64,000 nt of DNA from positions 1-64,000 of the forward strand of contig NZ_JAJQYA010000011.1 of assembly GCF_021729155.1 (NCBI RefSeq), given 5' to 3'. Source of the stretch: Membranihabitans marinus (lineage in GTDB: Bacteria; Bacteroidota; Bacteroidia; Chitinophagales; Saprospiraceae). This document shows positions 1 to 55,842 of this stretch, piece after piece; positions within the stretch are counted from its first letter, which is position 1; every line of letters begins with the position of its first letter. The notes beneath the pieces were generated by a model. That model did not search any database. It was given only the letters and a program-made list of their open reading frames with translations, and was not told the DNA's origin. The position numbers and the translations under genes are program-made.

Positions 1-134
1 TGCGGCTCTACAATAAATCGAAAGATAACCGAGTAAAGTACGAAGTACTGAAGGTAGTAAATCTACCTTCAACGAGGGCACCACGACCCCCGTGTCGTGG
101 GTGGGTAAGCTTATAAATTATAAATGTAATTCGT
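1..134 (+). mobile_element. Right arm of MITE-like element carrying one hairpin unit (cut by window edge)
   Basis: The stretch starts with an AATAAATCGAAAGAT-type arm (13-27) and ends with TAAATGTAATTCGT (121-134). Both halves match the terminal inverted repeat of the simple element at 53780-53936. Between the halves sits one triple-hairpin unit (30-109), so the unit looks inserted into the arm. ATTAT follows directly (135-139), the same 5-mer that flanks the 53780 element. The left end lies outside the window. Confidence 0.6.
30..109 (+). repeat. Triple-hairpin modular repeat, unit A
   Basis: Hairpin 0 pairs AGTAC (37-41) with GTACT (45-49) around loop GAA. Hairpin 1 pairs TGAAGGTAG (49-57) with its exact complement (63-71) around loop TAAAT. 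Linker ACGAGGGCA (72-80) follows. Hairpin 2 pairs CCACGAC (81-87) with GTCGTGG (94-100) around loop CCCCGT. The tail is GTGGGTAAG. Loops, linker and tail match the units near 28.3 kb and 52.4 kb, while the stem sequences do not. Confidence 0.8.
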
Positions 135-2693: not shown

Positions 2694-4913
2694 TTAGTCG
2701 TTTACAGGCTCTCCAATTACCTCTAGATATCGCCCTATCCAATAGGGTAACAACCATAAATCTCCAGCACTGTATTCTCGTGTCCCATTTTGGCCTCCAT
2801 CTAGTTCAAATCGATTGGCATTGTGTTGGCGGATTTTTAATTCATCTGGTGGTAAAACTTCTTTGGTAGCTTGATCTCTAAAATTGGCTGGCAAAACTTC
2901 AATATCTTTACGATGGCTGTTGTTTACCGTCCATGTGATTAAATCCAATGGAAATTCTTGTAAAAACCAGATGGCATTTTCGAAATCAAAATCTTCATCT
3001 CCTACCAAAGCCGTCATGATGTTCCAAAGTCCATCTTTCTCCGGTCGTTCGGCTTCCCAGTGATCTATAATGGCTTGTCGGTAATTAGATTTTAATTCGT
3101 CGTTGAAAGCATATCGGTAAAGTCCCCAATACCCCATATAATACATTTCATCATCAGAGTGATTCCATCTGCTGGATAGCATTTTACTCCAATCATCAGC
3201 TTGGTTCGGAGCCCTTCCTATTTCTTCCATCGGTCTCATAAGGTTTTCGAGATACCCGTAATCATCGATGAGTTCAAAAGCTTTTTCTTTGTACACTTCC
3301 TTTTTTGTAAAATAATAGGCCGATTGTAGCATGGCTATGATATTTGAACTATTGAGTTTACGGTCTCCTACAGAGGTAGGGAAATTGTTGACATAGTCGG
3401 GATGCCATCGCCCCCAAGTGGTTGGCTTGCCGTCGAAGTCTACAAGGTAAAGGTCATTATCCACTATATGTTGCATTAGTAAATCTAACAATTCAATGGC
3501 CTTTTCCCTTACTGGTTTTACATCAACCAATTCGGCAATAACTCCAAAAACAAAAACATGTCCGATTGCTTCATCACTGCTGGTTGTAGATTTCCAATCC
3601 CACTCAGGATCTTCTGTCGCTCGCCACGGTTTACTGCTTGCATTGTATCCCGCTCTCTGAAATGATCGGGAAGGGAATCCAGAGTTCATAGGATTGATAG
3701 TGTAGAGCCGCTCCATTGCATCTAATGATTCTTTGACATTCTGCAATGCTTCTTCTGAATGAGTAACTGCATATCTGAAGGCCTCCCCACCGAGATACAT
3801 CGATGTCCATAGACCATCATTGTCTGAATTTTTCATCGTCCCCGTGGTCAAATCTCCATTTTTCATATTAGATAAAATGGCATTAAACCCTGTTCTGATG
3901 TGGCGTTCTCTGACTTGTTTGTCAAAAAACTCCGCTTTGTCGGCCAAGGTCATTTCTTTGAAAACTATTTGTCCTAATCCGCCAGAAGTAAGGATCAATA
4001 CAGAATTTTCAGGACCTTTCGCAATATCAATAACACTATCTGAAGGGAGCCATCTTTTGGAAGCATAGTAATTAAATCGGCCATCTTCCTTTAATGACAT
4101 GGCACCTCTAGTGGATCCAAACCAGATTTTTCCGTCAATATTTTGGATGCTAGTCAATTCTGTCCATGGCATTTTTTGTTGGATTTCGCCGACTTGTCGT
4201 TTGGCCTTTGTGTCAAACTCAAAATACCCGTTGGTTGTACCGACAAGGATTTTCCCTGGTAACCATTCCATACAGGTTAAATTCGAACCTTTGAAAACTT
4301 GCTTTAATACTTTTTGGGTTGGAGAAAAAGTATTGAGGGTAGATTTACCCAAAATCCAGAATATGTTATTTTCATTATCGTATTCTATGCTGATCACTTC
4401 ATCTTGCGACAAAGTACCACTCCACAAGGTTTTGGAATCGAGTAATAGATTCAAATTTTTTCCGTCGGAGATTAAGAATTCAAAATCTTTACCTGCAGAA
4501 AAAATATTGGCATTGGCCATCTTGTGTTTGGAATAAAGTTTGCCCGCCCAAGCATTGCTGAATACGGCCTTGTCGTCCAGATAGATCAATTGATTTTCAT
4601 AGATCGATATAGATGAAATGTTTTTATCGGAGGTTGGTTTGTCTTGTACGTCGGTCACCAAAGTTCCCGGATATAAAAATTGTCCTGGTCTAGGTCGCAA
4701 TAGGCCTTGAGATGACAACAATTGGATATAACCATTTCTGTCTGATACTACACGGTATAATTGAATATCCTTGTCTTCAAGATCGTATTTGATGCTACAG
4801 TCTTGTAAAAAAGCCTTGTCGGGAATTCCATGGGGGTGGTTTCGTGTGTTGTCTTGAGCAAAGCTAATCGTTGCCAAAGTCATTAATAGCAATAACAATA
4901 AAGGGTTCTTCAT
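2694..4913 (-). CDS. secreted beta-propeller plus (alpha/alpha) barrel protein
   Basis: The 739-residue protein has a clear signal peptide (about 1-19, ending SFA). Residues ~40-320 look like a beta-propeller of the two-component-regulator-propeller type, with repeated short strands (IWFGSTRGAMSL, ILVGTTNGYFEF). Residues ~330-739 are rich in Trp, Tyr and helix, with repeating segments (WTSMYLGGEAFRYAV, YYMGYWGLYRYAF) typical of (alpha/alpha)6 barrels found in lyases and unsaturated glucuronyl hydrolases. No membrane helix follows the propeller, so it is not a hybrid sensor kinase. Its position beside a glycoside hydrolase suggests a glycan-active enzyme or binder, but no catalytic motif was recognised and the function is unknown. 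Confidence 0.6.
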   Translation of the reverse strand: MKNPLLLLLLMTLATISFAQDNTRNHPHGIPDKAFLQDCSIKYDLEDKDIQLYRVVSDRNGYIQLLSSQGLLRPRPGQFLYPGTLVTDVQDKPTSDKNISSISIYENQLIYLDDKAVFSNAWAGKLYSKHKMANANIFSAGKDFEFLISDGKNLNLLLDSKTLWSGTLSQDEVISIEYDNENNIFWILGKSTLNTFSPTQKVLKQVFKGSNLTCMEWLPGKILVGTTNGYFEFDTKAKRQVGEIQQKMPWTELTSIQNIDGKIWFGSTRGAMSLKEDGRFNYYASKRWLPSDSVIDIAKGPENSVLILTSGGLGQIVFKEMTLADKAEFFDKQVRERHIRTGFNAILSNMKNGDLTTGTMKNSDNDGLWTSMYLGGEAFRYAVTHSEEALQNVKESLDAMERLYTINPMNSGFPSRSFQRAGYNASSKPWRATEDPEWDWKSTTSSDEAIGHVFVFGVIAELVDVKPVREKAIELLDLLMQHIVDNDLYLVDFDGKPTTWGRWHPDYVNNFPTSVGDRKLNSSNIIAMLQSAYYFTKKEVYKEKAFELIDDYGYLENLMRPMEEIGRAPNQADDWSKMLSSRWNHSDDEMYYMGYWGLYRYAFNDELKSNYRQAIIDHWEAERPEKDGLWNIMTALVGDEDFDFENAIWFLQEFPLDLITWTVNNSHRKDIEVLPANFRDQATKEVLPPDELKIRQHNANRFELDGGQNGTREYSAGDLWLLPYWIGRYLEVIGEPVND

Positions 4914-28168: not shown

Positions 28169-28235
28169 GCGAAGTTGCCTTTTATACGAATTATATTTTA
28201 TAATGACGGAAAAGATTTCGAGACAACTGAGCAGG

Positions 28236-28306
28236 ATGCGTAGCATTGAAAGTCGTAAATCGACTTTCAGCGAGGGAGCCGTGAGCTCAGTCTCACGGGA
28301 GGGTTG
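28236..28306 (+). repeat. Triple-hairpin modular repeat, unit B
   Basis: Hairpin 0: ATGC (28236-28239) with GCAT (28243-28246), loop GTA. Hairpin 1: TGAAAGTCG (28247-28255) with its complement (28261-28269), loop TAAAT. Linker GCGAGGGAG. Hairpin 2: CCGTGAG (28279-28285) with CTCACGG (28292-28298), loop CTCAGT. Tail GAGGGTTG. All three stems are perfect and differ in sequence from unit A. Confidence 0.8.
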
Positions 28307-28345
28307 GCCGTTTGACGAGGCTACGACTGAATATAACTGAATGAA

Positions 28346-28419
28346 GTCACATAGTGACCAAATACCCTCAATAGGTATTTGATGAGGGCACCAATGCCAC
28401 CGCGCATTGGGTGGGAGAG
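28346..28419 (+). repeat. Triple-hairpin modular repeat, unit C
   Basis: Hairpin 0: GTCAC (28346-28350) with GTGAC (28354-28358), loop ATA. Hairpin 1: CAAATACC (28359-28366) with GGTATTTG (28374-28381), loop CTCAATA. Linker ATGAGGGCA. Hairpin 2: CCAATGC (28391-28397) with GCATTGG (28404-28410), loop CACCGC. Tail GTGGGAGAG. The leader GAATATAACTGAATGAAG recurs at 52303-52320 ahead of unit F. Confidence 0.8.
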
Positions 28420-28427
28420 GAAAGAAC

Positions 28428-28488
28428 CATTGACCGTAAATCGGTCAATGATGAAGGAGCCAAAACCTCCGTGTTCCGGGTGGGTGAG
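28428..28488 (+). repeat. Modular hairpin repeat, unit D
   Basis: Hairpin 1: CATTGACCG (28428-28436) with CGGTCAATG (28442-28450), loop TAAAT. Linker ATGAAGGAG. Hairpin 2: CCAAAAC (28460-28466) with GTTCCGG (28473-28479), loop CTCCGT, with two mismatched pairs. Tail GTGGGTGAG. Hairpin 0 is not evident. GGTCACTATGT just after (28491-28501) is the reverse complement of the hairpin 0 region of unit C. Confidence 0.75.
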
Positions 28489-28532
28489 GAGGTCACTATG
28501 TCGTGGCGTAATTTCTATTAAATTTTTAGGGT

Positions 28533-28560
28533 GTAGAGACGCAAAATCTTGCGTCTCTAC
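28533..28560. repeat. 12-bp perfect palindromic hairpin
   Basis: GTAGAGACGCAA (28533-28544) pairs with TTGCGTCTCTAC (28549-28560), loop AATC. It sits directly before the right arm of the composite element. Similar GTAGAGACGC palindromes are, from memory, common dispersed repeats in Bacteroidota and cyanobacteria. Its role here is unknown. Confidence 0.75.
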
Positions 28561-28624
28561 CGCAATAAATCCGAATATTCCCGCCAATTATAAATGTATT
28601 TCGTATTAATTAATAAACCACCCC

Positions 28625-52223: not shown

Positions 52224-52260
52224 CAATAGAAGAGAATTACTTCGTCCCTTCAGGACTTTT
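52224..52260. repeat. 37-bp direct repeat, copy 1
   Basis: CAATAGAAGAGAATTACTTC continuing to GGACTTTT differs from copy 2 (52776-52812) at one base. It contains a GTCC-CTTCA-GGAC hairpin followed by a T-run, so it could act as a plus-strand terminator for tauE. Confidence 0.7.
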
Positions 52261-52299
52261 TTCTAGGGAGACATTCATTTCATAGGATGAACGACCATG

Positions 52300-52345
52300 A
52301 CTGAATATAACTGAATGAAGTCACGTAGTGACCAAATACCCTCAA
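52300..52345 (+). repeat. Modular hairpin repeat, unit F (truncated)
   Basis: Leader GAATATAACTGAATGAAG (52303-52320) and hairpin 0 (GTCAC 52320-52324 with GTGAC 52328-52332, loop GTA) copy unit C. Hairpin 1 stops after CAAATACCCTCAAT, so its right arm and all of hairpin 2 are missing. The next unit joins directly at GGATGACCGAA. Confidence 0.7.
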
Positions 52346-52349
52346 TGGA

Positions 52350-52400
52350 TGACCGAATGCAGTACGAAGTACCAAAGGTCGTAAATCGACCTTTGATGAG
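52350..52400 (+). repeat. Modular hairpin repeat, unit G (lacks hairpin 2)
   Basis: Leader GACCGAATGCA. Hairpin 0: GTAC (52362-52365) with GTAC (52369-52372), loop GAA. Hairpin 1: CAAAGGTCG (52373-52381) with CGACCTTTG (52387-52395), loop TAAAT. After ATGAGG the sequence runs straight into the next leader TGACCGAA, so hairpin 2 has been lost. Confidence 0.75.
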
Positions 52401-52403
52401 GAT

Positions 52404-52485
52404 GACCGAACAAAATGCGCAGTATCATTGATCCTTAATGGATCAATGGTGAGGGAAACGAAACCTCCGTGTTTCGGGTGGGTGA
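52404..52485 (+). repeat. Triple-hairpin modular repeat, unit H
   Basis: Hairpin 0: ATGC (52415-52418) with GTAT (52422-52425, one G-T pair), loop GCA. Hairpin 1: CATTGATCC (52426-52434) with GGATCAATG (52440-52448), loop TTAAT. Linker GTGAGGGAA. Hairpin 2: CGAAAC (52459-52464) with GTTTCG (52471-52476), loop CTCCGT. Tail GTGGGTGA merges into the leader of unit I. Confidence 0.8.
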
Positions 52486-52566
52486 CCGAGTGAAGAGCAA
52501 AGCACCATTGATCCTAAATGGATCAATGACGAGGGAACCGGAGCCACTGTGCTCCGGGTGCGTGAG
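52483..52566 (+). repeat. Triple-hairpin modular repeat, unit I
   Basis: Leader GTGACCGAGTGAA. Hairpin 0 is weak: GAGC with GCAC around AAA, one mismatch. Hairpin 1: CATTGATCC (52506-52514) with GGATCAATG (52520-52528), loop TAAAT. Linker ACGAGGGAA. Hairpin 2: CCGGAGC (52538-52544) with GCTCCGG (52551-52557), loop CACTGT. Tail GTGCGTGAG. It shares hairpin 1 with unit H, but hairpin 2 differs in both arms. Confidence 0.8.
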
Positions 52567-52775
52567 ATGTATAAGGCATCAAACAACATTGATTTGGCGG
52601 ACTTTTTGCATTTTCAATTTTCTGACACGTATAGATCATGTCTTTTCATTCCCTGTAATGATATAATAGGATAGATTGGGCAAAAAGTGTGACAAATCCA
52701 TGAGCATGAACATTCATGCATTTATACAATCCACATCATTTATAATTTCTAATAGAGGGTATGGATATTTCTTGT

Positions 52776-52812
52776 CAATAGGAGAGAATTACTTCGTCCC
52801 TTCAGGACTTTT
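52776..52812. repeat. 37-bp direct repeat, copy 2
   Basis: Matches 52224-52260 at 36 of 37 positions. The two copies bracket the hairpin array, about 550 bp apart. Confidence 0.7.
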
Positions 52813-52842
52813 CTATTGTTATATTAGATTGAGTTTGCCGAA

Positions 52843-52924
52843 AACCAGTGGCTCTGGTTCCTCGCCGTTATTTTATTAATACCAAGTCGCAGCACAATGA
52901 CTTTCCTACCCGGAGCAGAGTGGC
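52843..52924 (-). repeat. Decayed hairpin units on the opposite strand
   Basis: Read on the minus strand, 52843-52864 gives CGAGGAACCAGAGCCACTGG, close to the linker and hairpin 2 of unit I, with a stem AACCAG/CTGGTT. 52907-52924 gives GCCACTCTGCTCCGGGTA, matching the loop, right arm and tail of unit I at 16 of 18 bases but without the left arm. These look like relics. Confidence 0.45.
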
Positions 52925-53595: not shown

Positions 53596-53779
53596 TTTTT
53601 GAGTATTTAAAAATTAAAATTTGTTTTTAAGTTAATTTGATGATAATTGCTGGATTGATCGGCCCACTGAGTTAGATCACTACCTATATTTTCTTTCCAT
53701 ACATAGAGTAACTCTACATTGAGACCTTCAAAAAAAGAAGTAAAGTCATAGTGGAGTTGGGCGTTGATTTGGAAATTAT

Positions 53780-53936
53780 ACGAATTACATTTATAATTGA
53801 CGGTAATCTTTCGATTTATTAGAAGTTTTACATCGTTTAAAATACTCGCCGTAGCTACGGCTATGCCTGTGTTTTTAGCCTCGTCAAACTTCAAATACTC
53901 TCGAAATCTTTTCCGTCATTATAAAATGTAATTCGT
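53780..53936 (+). mobile_element. 157-bp MITE-like element, copy 1 (in the porin gene)
   Basis: The left end ACGAATTACATTTATAATTG and right end (reverse complement ACGAATTACATTTTATAATG) form imperfect terminal inverted repeats of about 40 bp. They are flanked by ATTAT on both sides (53775-53779 and 53937-53941), a perfect 5-bp target duplication. The centre holds the palindrome GCCGTAGCTACGGC (53848-53861). There is no ORF. Removal of 162 bp restores the porin frame (codons GAT AAT TTC CAA). Confidence 0.85.
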
Positions 53937-54856
53937 ATTATCAGCCATTTTATATTTATTGTATTTTAGATTTTTCATATCAGTACCCAGCAATGTGGCG
54001 GCGTCTAGATTTACAATTAGATTCTTCCAGCCATGTTCTAATCCTGTTTTGAATACATGAATATCTCCTAATCCATTGAGGCGACTTCGACTCATTGAAG
54101 TATAAAATTGGTCTCGTCCTAGTTCTTTTGGAAATAAAAACCGACCGGAATTAAAAGCCCTGGAATAGGCTATCTGAATACTTGTATTGTGAACGCAGTA
54201 TTGCCCCATAAGGCTTAATACTCGCCCCTTTTCATCTGGTTGAATATATCGGTTATCATAATTCAAACCTTCTTGATAGAGTAGTGGTGATTGAAAGGTA
54301 TATATCAGACCATATTGCCATTTGTTTTTCATATATTCTAATCTGAAATAAGAGGTATTTATAGTTTTATCTAGATAAATATTCCATAAATCAATATTCC
54401 AATGATTTTCTTTCTTGCCCACATGTGCCAATCCAATACCACTACTGGAATGATGATTGGCTATTTCGGTTATGTGACCATTGGGCTGATATCCCTTGTC
54501 GATTAACCCTATGGCCTCTTTTATTGTAAACCATTCCGTCATGGATCTAGGCGACACCTTATTTATCCAAGCTCCATCAAATACCCATCCCGAAGTAGAG
54601 TGATGTAGCCAGCCCCCACTAAAGGCAAATGATATCATCCTTCCATCGCTACTGTTCAAAAAAGGAGTTTTTTTAATTGGTATTTTGCCATACGTAAGGT
54701 TGATGTTATTAAAATTGTATTCAATGTATAATTTTTCCAAACGGGAAATATCTTTATAGCGGTTGATGTGATTGATGTCGTACAATTCTCGTTCCCATTT
54801 TGAAGACTTTCCCGTAGCCGGATCGATCTCATTTAAGTCAGAAGAAAAGGCCTTAT

Positions 54857-55013
54857 ACCAAATGTATTTTGTAATGTCGGTTAAGATTTTGAGAGAATTT
54901 GAAGTTAGACGAGGCTAAAAACACAGGCATAGCCGTAGCTACGGCGAGTATTTTAAACGATGTATAACATCAAATAAATCGAAATATAGCCGACAATTAT
55001 AAATGCAATTGGT
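54857..55013 (-). mobile_element. 157-bp MITE-like element, copy 2 (in the porin gene)
   Basis: It has the same length and structure as copy 1 but opposite orientation. The tips read ACCAA/TTGGT in place of ACGAA/TTCGT. The 55-bp core (54908-54962) is the exact reverse complement of 53831-53885, including the palindrome at 54932-54945. The flanks TTAT and ATAA do not form a clear target duplication. Confidence 0.8.
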
Positions 55014-55284
55014 ATAAAAGTGAAAGATGCCGAAATTCCAAGTTGAAATCCCTTATAGGCCTTTGTTTTATAGTTGATCAACCCTCCTAAAGCATCGGTA
55101 TAATAGTTCTTACCATCGATGTGAATGGTAGTCATGAAATAATTGCGGATATGACCGCTAGTTTGCCCTCCTTTCATTAGTGAAGCTAAGGACTGACCAT
55201 GATCTACATCATAGTTATCCTGAGCCTCTAGATTTTGAAAGAGGAATAATACAGTCAAAAAAACTGTAAACCATTTCATGAGAA

Positions 55285-55842
55285 TTAAAATATTAAAGGA
55301 AGAATTAACTGGCTCATTATCAATCCACCAATGAAAAATCCAATAGTGGCTATAAGTGATGGCCATTGAAGGTTACTAATGCCTGAAATACCATGTCCAG
55401 AAGTACATCCCCCTGCATAACGAGCACCGAAACCTACCAATAATCCACCGATAAGTAGTAGGGCGAGGGTCTTTGGTGACGAAAAAGCCTGATTCCCAAA
55501 TATTTCAGTGGGTAAATAATCTGTGCCAACACTTTCAATCCCCAAGGATTGAAGTTGTTCAATGGTTTTGGGGTTCAGGTCAGGGATTTGATGTTCGGAC
55601 AAATATTGGGCGGCAATAAATCCCCCAATTACGGTACCAGTCATTACCAGTAAATTCCATCGTTGGGCTTTCCAATCAAAGCAAAAAAACTCACAGGTTT
55701 TGTCCGCCCCACAAACCGTACAAAGGGTTCTGAGGTTGGAAGACATACCAAAATTTTTACCTACATATAGCAAGGTAAACATAATAAGGGCTATTAATGG
55801 TCCGCTGATATACCACGGCCATGGTGCTAAAATCCATTCCAT
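55285..55842 (-). CDS. YeeE/YedE-family sulfur-compound transporter
   Basis: The 185-residue protein has four to five TM segments, a cytoplasmic Cys-rich loop (LCTVCGADKTCEFFCFDW) and the conserved channel motif GGCTSGHGISG near residue 144, like the thiosulfate-uptake protein YeeE. Paired with the DUF6691 protein it probably moves thiosulfate or another reduced sulfur species across the inner membrane. It lies between SQR (53 nt upstream) and the porin pseudogene (5 nt downstream) in one operon. Confidence 0.88.
   Translation of the reverse strand: MEWILAPWPWYISGPLIALIMFTLLYVGKNFGMSSNLRTLCTVCGADKTCEFFCFDWKAQRWNLLVMTGTVIGGFIAAQYLSEHQIPDLNPKTIEQLQSLGIESVGTDYLPTEIFGNQAFSSPKTLALLLIGGLLVGFGARYAGGCTSGHGISGISNLQWPSLIATIGFFIGGLIMSQLILPLIF

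Follow-up and report, generated by a model that had tools for sequence, protein, structure and literature searches.

How can the stems of a repeated hairpin change their sequence while the two arms stay complementary? The question is raised by an array of hairpin units in the window, which is the whole 64,000-nt stretch of Membranihabitans marinus DNA that we analyzed. The initial annotation counted eight units and considered either selection for structure or a copying mechanism that regenerates the arms. We think it somewhat probable that these units belong to a non-autonomous mobile repeat of Saprospiraceae, which acts as folded DNA and whose arms are kept complementary by DNA-level copying.

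Plan of the unit and its copies in the window

The full unit is 82 nt long and was gap-free over 30 chosen copies. Read 5' to 3', it consists of the leader GACYGARYRAA, a 4-bp hairpin (HP0, loop GNA in most copies), a 9-bp hairpin (HP1, loop TAAAT in most copies), the linker RYGARGGAA, a 7-bp hairpin with a 6-nt loop (HP2), and the tail GTGGGTGA with the core GTGGGT. All eight units (A, B, C, D, F, G, H, and I) exist, F by reading only (Table 1). Units F to I had been described as four joined copies of one plan. The plan and the stems are as described, but only H and I are complete; the array at 52299-52565 contains these two full units, one unit without HP2 (G), and one truncated unit that is cut inside HP1 (F). 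In a covariance-model scan of the window's genome, short units without HP2 frequently stood just before a full unit.

The 281-nt array folded better than shuffled sequences by 4.5 SD on the plus strand and 4.9 SD on the minus strand. Together with the 230 model matches and the perfect stems of units picked by their unpaired letters, both described below, this argues that the structure of the array is not due to chance.

Table 1. Positions of the hairpin units and of neighboring repeats in the window
Feature	Position	Strand	Description
Unit A, full	27-108	+	Covariance model; next to it, at 116-136, an inverted-repeat end of a different element
Element with inverted ends (ATACGAATTACATTTATAATT type, 5 and 1 mismatches)	28184-28606		Encloses units B, C, and D
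Unit B, full	28225-28306	+	Covariance model
Unit C	28335-28418	+	HP1 CAAATACC, loop 7 nt
Unit D	28420-28487	+	Most of leader and HP0 missing; covariance model
37-nt repeat left of array	52224-52260	+	Second copy at 52776-52812; neighboring repeat family, outside the unit
Unit F, truncated	52299-52350	+	Leader, HP0 GTCAC-GTA-GTGAC at 52320, HP1 left arm at 52333, cut by following leader; read by eye, not reported by the model
Unit G, short, 53 nt	52351-52403	+	Leader, HP0, HP1 CAAAGGTCG-TAAAT-CGACCTTTG at 52373-52395, no HP2; 47.1 bits
Unit H, full	52404-52483	+	HP1 CATTGATCC with loop TTAAT at 52426-52448; HP2 ACGAAAC-CTCCGT-GTTTCGG at 52458-52477; 83.4 bits
Unit I, full	52484-52565	+	HP1 CATTGATCC with loop TAAAT at 52506-52528; HP2 CCGGAGC with loop CACTGT at 52538-52557; 92.3 bits
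Downstream module	52575-52850	+	Recurs at other arrays of the same genome; part of the mosaic, outside the unit
Empty copies of ~165-bp element (ends ATACGAATTACATTTATAATT)	53778-53938; ~54866-55015 (one end matched)		No unit inside

Pairing of the stems

Stems varied between genera, and loops, linker, and tail were retained. In the window's genome we picked units by the letters of loop, linker, and leader only. The HP1 stem was perfect over nine pairs in 145 of these 171 units, had one mismatch in 22, and had more in 4; the 34 mismatched cells comprised 9 G-T, 4 A-C, and 21 other combinations. In the window, unit H has one A/G mismatch at the foot of HP2. When linker and tail were the only letters used, at least five perfect interior HP2 pairs were found in 68/83 units here and 29/34 units of other genomes. 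A perfect HP1 arm of at least 8 accompanied 62/83 and 20/34 of them, respectively, as compared to 35 of 4000 random positions of the same loci. No perfect arm of at least 4 lay beside the linker in 17 units here and in 14 units of the other genomes.

Similar results came from two cross-genus alignments, both fitted to the model. In these, 96.5% and 96.7% of the cells were paired and both sides had changed in 392 and 268 cells; the covariation scores were 0.85 and 0.80 vs. 0.22 and 0.19 in shuffles. Sliding the partner by 1-3 columns lowered the pairing to 31-50%. Alignment A1 (30 units) was selected by pairing, so its 99% of paired cells is inflated, and the letter-only selections correct for that; alignment A4 holds the best 150 of the 230 matches. 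The claim of joint change in the two arms with fixed loops and linkers was thus borne out across many genera.

Wobble pairs were scarce. In three alignments fitted to the model, they occupied 21/2079, 16/908, and 7/662 of the HP1 and HP2 cells, and A-C occupied 6, 8, and 2 cells. The wobble share was 0.6-1.8% of stem cells vs. 6.7% in tRNAs (68/1010 pairs in 47 tRNAs); this control consists of the tRNAs of the loci fetched, possibly with a few from other taxa, for which ARAGORN reports standard pairs only. G-T exceeded A-C among the mismatches (9:4 in the letter-picked set; 21:6, 16:8, and 7:2 in the model-fitted alignments), which is the direction expected of RNA and counts against pairing at the DNA level.

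An outer closing stem was considered as a fourth helix. The flanks of 77 units were on average no more complementary than mismatched flanks (mean 14.14 vs. 13.98), and a general fourth helix was therefore dropped. Nine flank pairs reached a score of at least 20 (4.1 expected), and several tRNA-linked cases do have a closing stem.

How the stems change

We compared 131 distinct units pairwise. Changes in one arm only stayed at 3-4% at every level of divergence of the unpaired letters, and changes in both arms climbed with it from 2.6% to 45-48%. Across 65 nearest-neighbor pairs, 1024 pair cells showed 34 changes in one arm only and 63 in both. The per-site difference in these pairs was 0.078 for arms and 0.108 for unpaired letters; thus stems do not change faster than the rest of the unit at short range. 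Because wobble is scarce and one-arm changes remain at 3-4% while two-arm changes reach about 45%, the data favor pairing that is kept at the DNA level over an ordinary structured RNA.

Among the 26 perfect alleles of HP1, 18 have a neighbor exactly one compensated pair away. The compensated steps of HP1 (n = 14) were transition-type in 8 cases and transversion-type in 6, and the single-mismatch alleles (n = 16) were split 9 and 7. For HP2, the compensated steps were 13 and 5, and the one-arm mismatches 11 and 6. Arm copying predicts equal spectra in the two classes, whereas RNA evolution by a wobble route would favor transition-type steps; arm copying fits these small numbers better. Selection on pairing with unfit intermediates is possible as an alternative to arm copying. 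Between the two readings offered at the outset, copying at the DNA level is in better agreement with the scarce wobble and the equal substitution mix (small numbers), and selection on RNA structure fits less well. The HP2 arm CCACGAC was found with 11 HP1 arms. Alleles of HP1 and HP2 thus combine freely, and the hairpins behave as modules.

Copy number and distribution

The window's genome has 5.40 Mb in 78 contigs. A BLAST search with the array against this genome gave at least 67 matches (40 of 273 candidates scored), and the covariance model gave at least 155 (150 of 2526 candidates scored). The initial annotation had proposed a covariance-model search of the genome and its relatives. With cmsearch at E 0.01 we obtained 230 matches, partial ones included, in 244,267 bases, namely the window and 58 further stretches of its genome, which were mostly taken because they had matches. 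The first model matched 8/60 relatives, none of the eight being among the 23 genomes from other families of the order. The broader model R2 matched 100/298 genomes and 45/112 genera of the family, which we took to be Saprospiraceae, where NCBI taxonomy places Membranihabitans. Among 395 genomes drawn across the phylum three matched, all in that same family.

A scan of named genomes with one fixed pattern gave 13 stretches (5 Membranihabitans, 1 Portibacter, and 7 from scattered taxa), which is near the estimated chance number. R2 scored the Portibacter stretch at 50.1 bits; three of the seven scattered stretches gave weak matches (15.5-17.8 bits) and four gave none. A phage or a plasmid was considered as the vehicle of the units and set aside: no blastn match of the window's array was found in 50,697 phage and 72,556 plasmid records, a search which diverged units could escape. 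Four pattern matches in viral contigs included one R2 match of 15.4 bits and three without an R2 match.

Target duplications and tRNA genes in other genera

If the units are mobile, traces of insertion may be found in their flanks. For the duplication test, 61 units of other genomes were listed by hand and 60 passed the length filter; the tandem loci L164, L172, and L174 and most array members of G001 and G002 were left out. Direct repeats between left and right flank scored at least 12 in 18/60 units (0.8 expected from mismatched flanks) and at least 14 in 15/60 (0.43 expected). For 14 of these 18 units, 0-4 nt separated the end of the left copy from the leader, in most cases exactly 2 nt, which are often AT. 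The other four were L101, L184, and one unit each of L168 and L169; a longer right flank puts L184 at 2 nt as well. Weaker cases are L195 and L200, which came from the tRNA-Val query, and L163, L165, and L181, in which flank and unit are tandemly repeated. The filler behind the unit matched the target in inverted orientation with a score of at least 9 in 10/27 cases (1.4 expected) and in sense orientation in 4/27 (0.8 expected), the 27 cases having been chosen because a duplication was present or expected. In the window's genome, direct repeats abutted the leader in 2/105 arrays vs. 2.5 expected, which is no signal. Duplication of the target, a general mark of mobile elements, was thus found in other genomes and not in the window's genome, where the mode of spread may therefore differ or be obscured by repeated flanks.

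A tRNA gene was present in 9/58 unit loci of other genera, as compared to 0/30 control loci at transposase genes and 4/58 unit loci of the window's genome. At tRNA-Val(GAC), upstream units had the direction of the gene and downstream units the opposite one, so that the tails face the tRNA. The nearest unit was 27-71 nt away in the cases displayed, and 110 nt away at the tRNA-Asp of L101. In genomes known to carry units, 7/20 tRNA-Val(GAC) loci had them; three of the seven (L192, L196, and L199) had prompted the idea and four are independent of its framing. The outer side of many units adjoins a truncated tRNA copy, and the inner side frequently bears an inverted tRNA piece. A like pattern was seen at tRNA-Leu (L092), tRNA-Asp (L173), and tRNA-Glu (L159).

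Other kinds of genes are also involved. In L184:1440-1750 the start of a protein gene is doubled around the unit. The unit cuts off the upstream copy; downstream of it the first codons recur, and there the frame reads on. Long duplications may be seen mainly since insertions that break essential genes would not survive. L161 has a unit behind a gene for 5S rRNA. The target beside the unit at the contig end of L166 is presumably the 3' end of such a gene in antisense orientation, and it had no Rfam match.

A separate feature was noted at tRNA-Val in two genera (L168 / L199 and L169 / L192), where the truncated upstream copy holds an extra small hairpin between TGTAG and CT(C/A)AG.

Setting in the window's genome

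Units of the window's genome were mostly intergenic on maps of long ORFs. Of the nearest units no more than 150 nt from a long ORF, 24 faced a 3' end and 2 a 5' end. Units located 3' of genes shared the gene's direction in 21/24 cases within 150 nt, 35/49 within 400 nt, and 40/62 within 1500 nt; the gene ends in these counts are those of long ORFs, not of annotated genes. This setting agrees with the main rival explanation, in which the units are structured RNA of 3' untranslated regions and their hairpins serve to bind a protein or to protect or process the message. In such an RNA only pairing would matter, which would lead to covariation, and the strong covariation, the unpaired letters conserved over genera, and the slight excess of G-T over A-C agree with it. 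We nevertheless regard it as unlikely. The orientation bias was absent in the other four genomes scored (17/31 pooled within 400 nt), downstream units beside tRNA genes are antisense, and some arrays contain units in opposing orientations. In addition, the wobble share is about 4-11 times below that of tRNA, and the unit has no Rfam match. The suggestion of a processing signal or 3'-end RNA element thus finds limited support in the window's genome, where units lie 3' of genes in the gene's orientation, but not in the four others.

Presence and absence of units can be compared at related sites. Filled and empty versions of the same repeats were found at L046, L014, and L135, indicating that units were added into pre-existing sequence. 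For the TauE gene next to the 52.3-kb array, the best matches in the two congeners have 62% and 57% identity, and no unit was found in the flanks examined of either match, orthology being taken from best match and not from gene order. A weaker TauE-like match in G001 (38% identity) has a unit nearby (L237).

The arrays stand in mosaics with other repeats, including the ~165-bp element with inverted ends. Ends of the type ATACGAATTAC lay on both sides of 7/82 arrays of the window's genome and on one side only of 19. By reading, arrays appear to replace inner parts of this element, with 11 nt probably lost in L046. On this evidence the hairpin units could be cargo modules inside a larger inverted-repeat element (MITE), the hairpins having no role of their own. 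We find this quite improbable, because 56/82 arrays had no such end within 700 nt (some lie near the edge of the sequence examined) and because many single units in other genera, judged by eye, start and stop abruptly within unrelated flanks. The leader and tail of the unit are not inverted repeats of each other, as examined in a test for a MITE.

Search for a mobilizing enzyme

A folded mobile repeat without a gene of its own might be moved in trans. One candidate is the IS200-like Y1 transposase (RAYT), which would make the unit a REP-type element. In keeping with this idea, the units are dispersed intergenic hairpins, and Y1_Tnp genes occur in 7/8 carriers, but also in 46/60 genomes overall. 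The window's genome has three Y1 genes: one with units at 656 nt and 1.9 kb (L135), one with a unit at 2.3 kb (L137), and one with none in its stretch (L136); in L135, weak Acido-Lenti-1-like hairpins lie closer to the gene than the nearest unit. We disfavor this explanation and consider that there is little chance of its being correct. At E 0.1, no unit came closer than about 1.3 kb to any of 30 Y1_Tnp loci (8 loci from genomes with units and 22 from genomes in which none was found), and 26 further Y1 stretches from six carriers gave one weak 20-bit match only, about 1 kb from the gene. Carrier G015 had no Y1_Tnp match. Target duplications, which were observed at units, are not expected of HUH single-strand transposition.

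A link to reverse transcriptase of the group II intron or SINE-like kind is disfavored, since RVT_1 (one Pfam model, E 0.001) had no match in 9/15 carriers, the window's genome included, and a match in 8/15 non-carriers. No recurrent neighbor protein was found among 306 ORFs of at least 100 aa around units; in the best 25 clusters, the largest across genomes had 3 ORFs from 2 genomes.

Comparison with known repeats

The initial annotation recognized no described family, and our searches agreed. Rfam 15 gave no match to the unit; at curated thresholds it reported no family in the window, and no tRNA either. Lax Rfam scans of chosen loci gave only weak matches on or touching a unit, namely CRISPR-DR6 at L013:1173-1202 (26.4 bits against a threshold of 39) and, at unit edges, Acido-Lenti-1 (24.8 bits in L044 and 22.6 bits in L046, threshold 37). 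The open-access papers searched included none that describes this three-hairpin repeat.

BOX, ERIC, and similar repeats are likewise modular and intergenic, with unclear mobility; they have conserved stem sequences and belong to other lineages. Hairpin elements of Allomyces mitochondria are reportedly treated by Paquin 2000. The attC-like recombination site that had been suggested initially finds no support, because the arrays, head-to-tail units of about 50-90 nt with diverse neighbor genes, enclose no cassette genes; the long ORFs that overlap some arrays are, by reading, array read-through.

REP and REPIN elements with TnpA_REP (RAYT), as presented in the available parts of PMC3116915, PMC6006769, and PMC3733652, resemble the unit in being short, dispersed, extragenic, non-coding hairpins that form arrays and inverted pairs. 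The Saprospiraceae unit differs in its three hairpins, in stems that turn over completely, in flanking target duplications, and in having no closely flanked Y1 gene. A REP element is a single hairpin of 20-40 nt with an unpaired GTAG or CGTC tag, and CGTC-tagged palindromes without a dedicated transposase have been reported (PMC3733652, in its available part). The 82-nt unit is not a single tagged hairpin; no GTAG or CGTC tag was found at its ends, and no Y1 gene flanked by copies of it was seen. The mitochondrial double-hairpin elements of Allomyces and the hairpin elements of sponges are also mobile multi-hairpin intergenic repeats, and in sponges the stems are conserved while the loops vary, according to the accessible text of PMC2800124. 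The Saprospiraceae unit does the reverse, keeping its loops and varying its stems, and it is bacterial and family-wide, with three hairpins and with insertions beside tRNA genes. The Acido-Lenti-1 RNA (RF01687), as far as the available part of PMC2864571 describes it, is a two-hairpin repeat; it is found here beside arrays, and its sequence and plan differ from those of the unit.

Proposed mechanism

For the mobile repeat acting as folded DNA we observed dispersal, tandem arrays, presence and absence at related sites, reassortment of modules, Watson-Crick pairing of the arms during turnover, and target duplications in other genera. Counting against it are the lack of a cognate enzyme in the searches made, the lack of leader-abutting repeats and the gene-oriented units in the window's genome, and the unit at the TauE-like locus of G001.

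We suggest that the single-stranded hairpin form may be handled by an enzyme of the host or of an element, or by template switching at the replication fork. The leader, the TAAAT loop, the GARGGAA linker, and the GGGTGGG tail would be the recognition parts for that machinery. A mutation in one arm would be copied to the other by arm-to-arm templated repair, so that stems could drift freely and stay paired. An insertion would leave the target, AT, the unit, a short filler, and a repeat of the target, in that order. In many cases the filler would be the target copied in inverted orientation, a result to be expected of a new end that folds back and copies.

A bolder proposal, which we make tentatively and hold to be doubtful, is that the units represent a new class of bacterial mobile element. 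Such an element would be a three-hairpin cassette that is placed next to tRNA genes and others through DNA synthesis with fold-back and template switching and regenerates an intact target copy each time. Its stems would be rewritten by arm-to-arm copying, and its heritable identity would reside in loops and linkers only.

If the reading as a mobile folded-DNA repeat is right, the unit is a family-wide repeat of bacteria that is defined by unpaired letters and pairing rather than by stem sequence, and ordinary repeat searches would therefore miss it between genera. The few hundred copies in one genome, with their many stem alleles, would offer a natural test of what keeps palindromes perfect, selection or templated copying. 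Where units were inserted next to tRNA genes, the duplicated and inverted target pieces would record an insertion chemistry for which neither of the enzyme families tested, Y1 transposase and reverse transcriptase, accounts.

Neighboring repeats

Several observations concern the repeats around the arrays. The two empty ~165-bp copies in the window lie between or inside three ORFs without a Pfam match (53607-53894, 53919-54785, and 54953-55366), which may be one interrupted gene. At L137:660-820 and L137:1080-1100, filled and empty versions of an inverted-repeat element were seen by eye, with an apparent TTA duplication. In L068 of Membranihabitans marinus, inverted copies of a ~400-500 bp repeat (1083-1490 and 3714-4146), each with two units, surround several ORFs; one of these, of 317 aa, we take to be a sodium/calcium exchanger.

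The 37-nt repeat at 52224-52260 may, by reading, be a partial Acido-Lenti-1-like hairpin. In the Rfam scan, Acido-Lenti-1 (RF01687) scored above threshold in intergenic repeats at L145:940-984, L037:698-742, L149:1567-1611, L013:967-1011, L140:1983-2027, and L018:2183-2227. Weak matches at L135:2244-2286 and 2468-2513 lie on the 5' side of the Y1 transposase gene at L135:2560-3012, and L125, from another genus, has three weak matches on both sides of a Y1 match. Instead of a small RNA, the Acido-Lenti-1 "RNA" may be a palindrome linked to a transposase.
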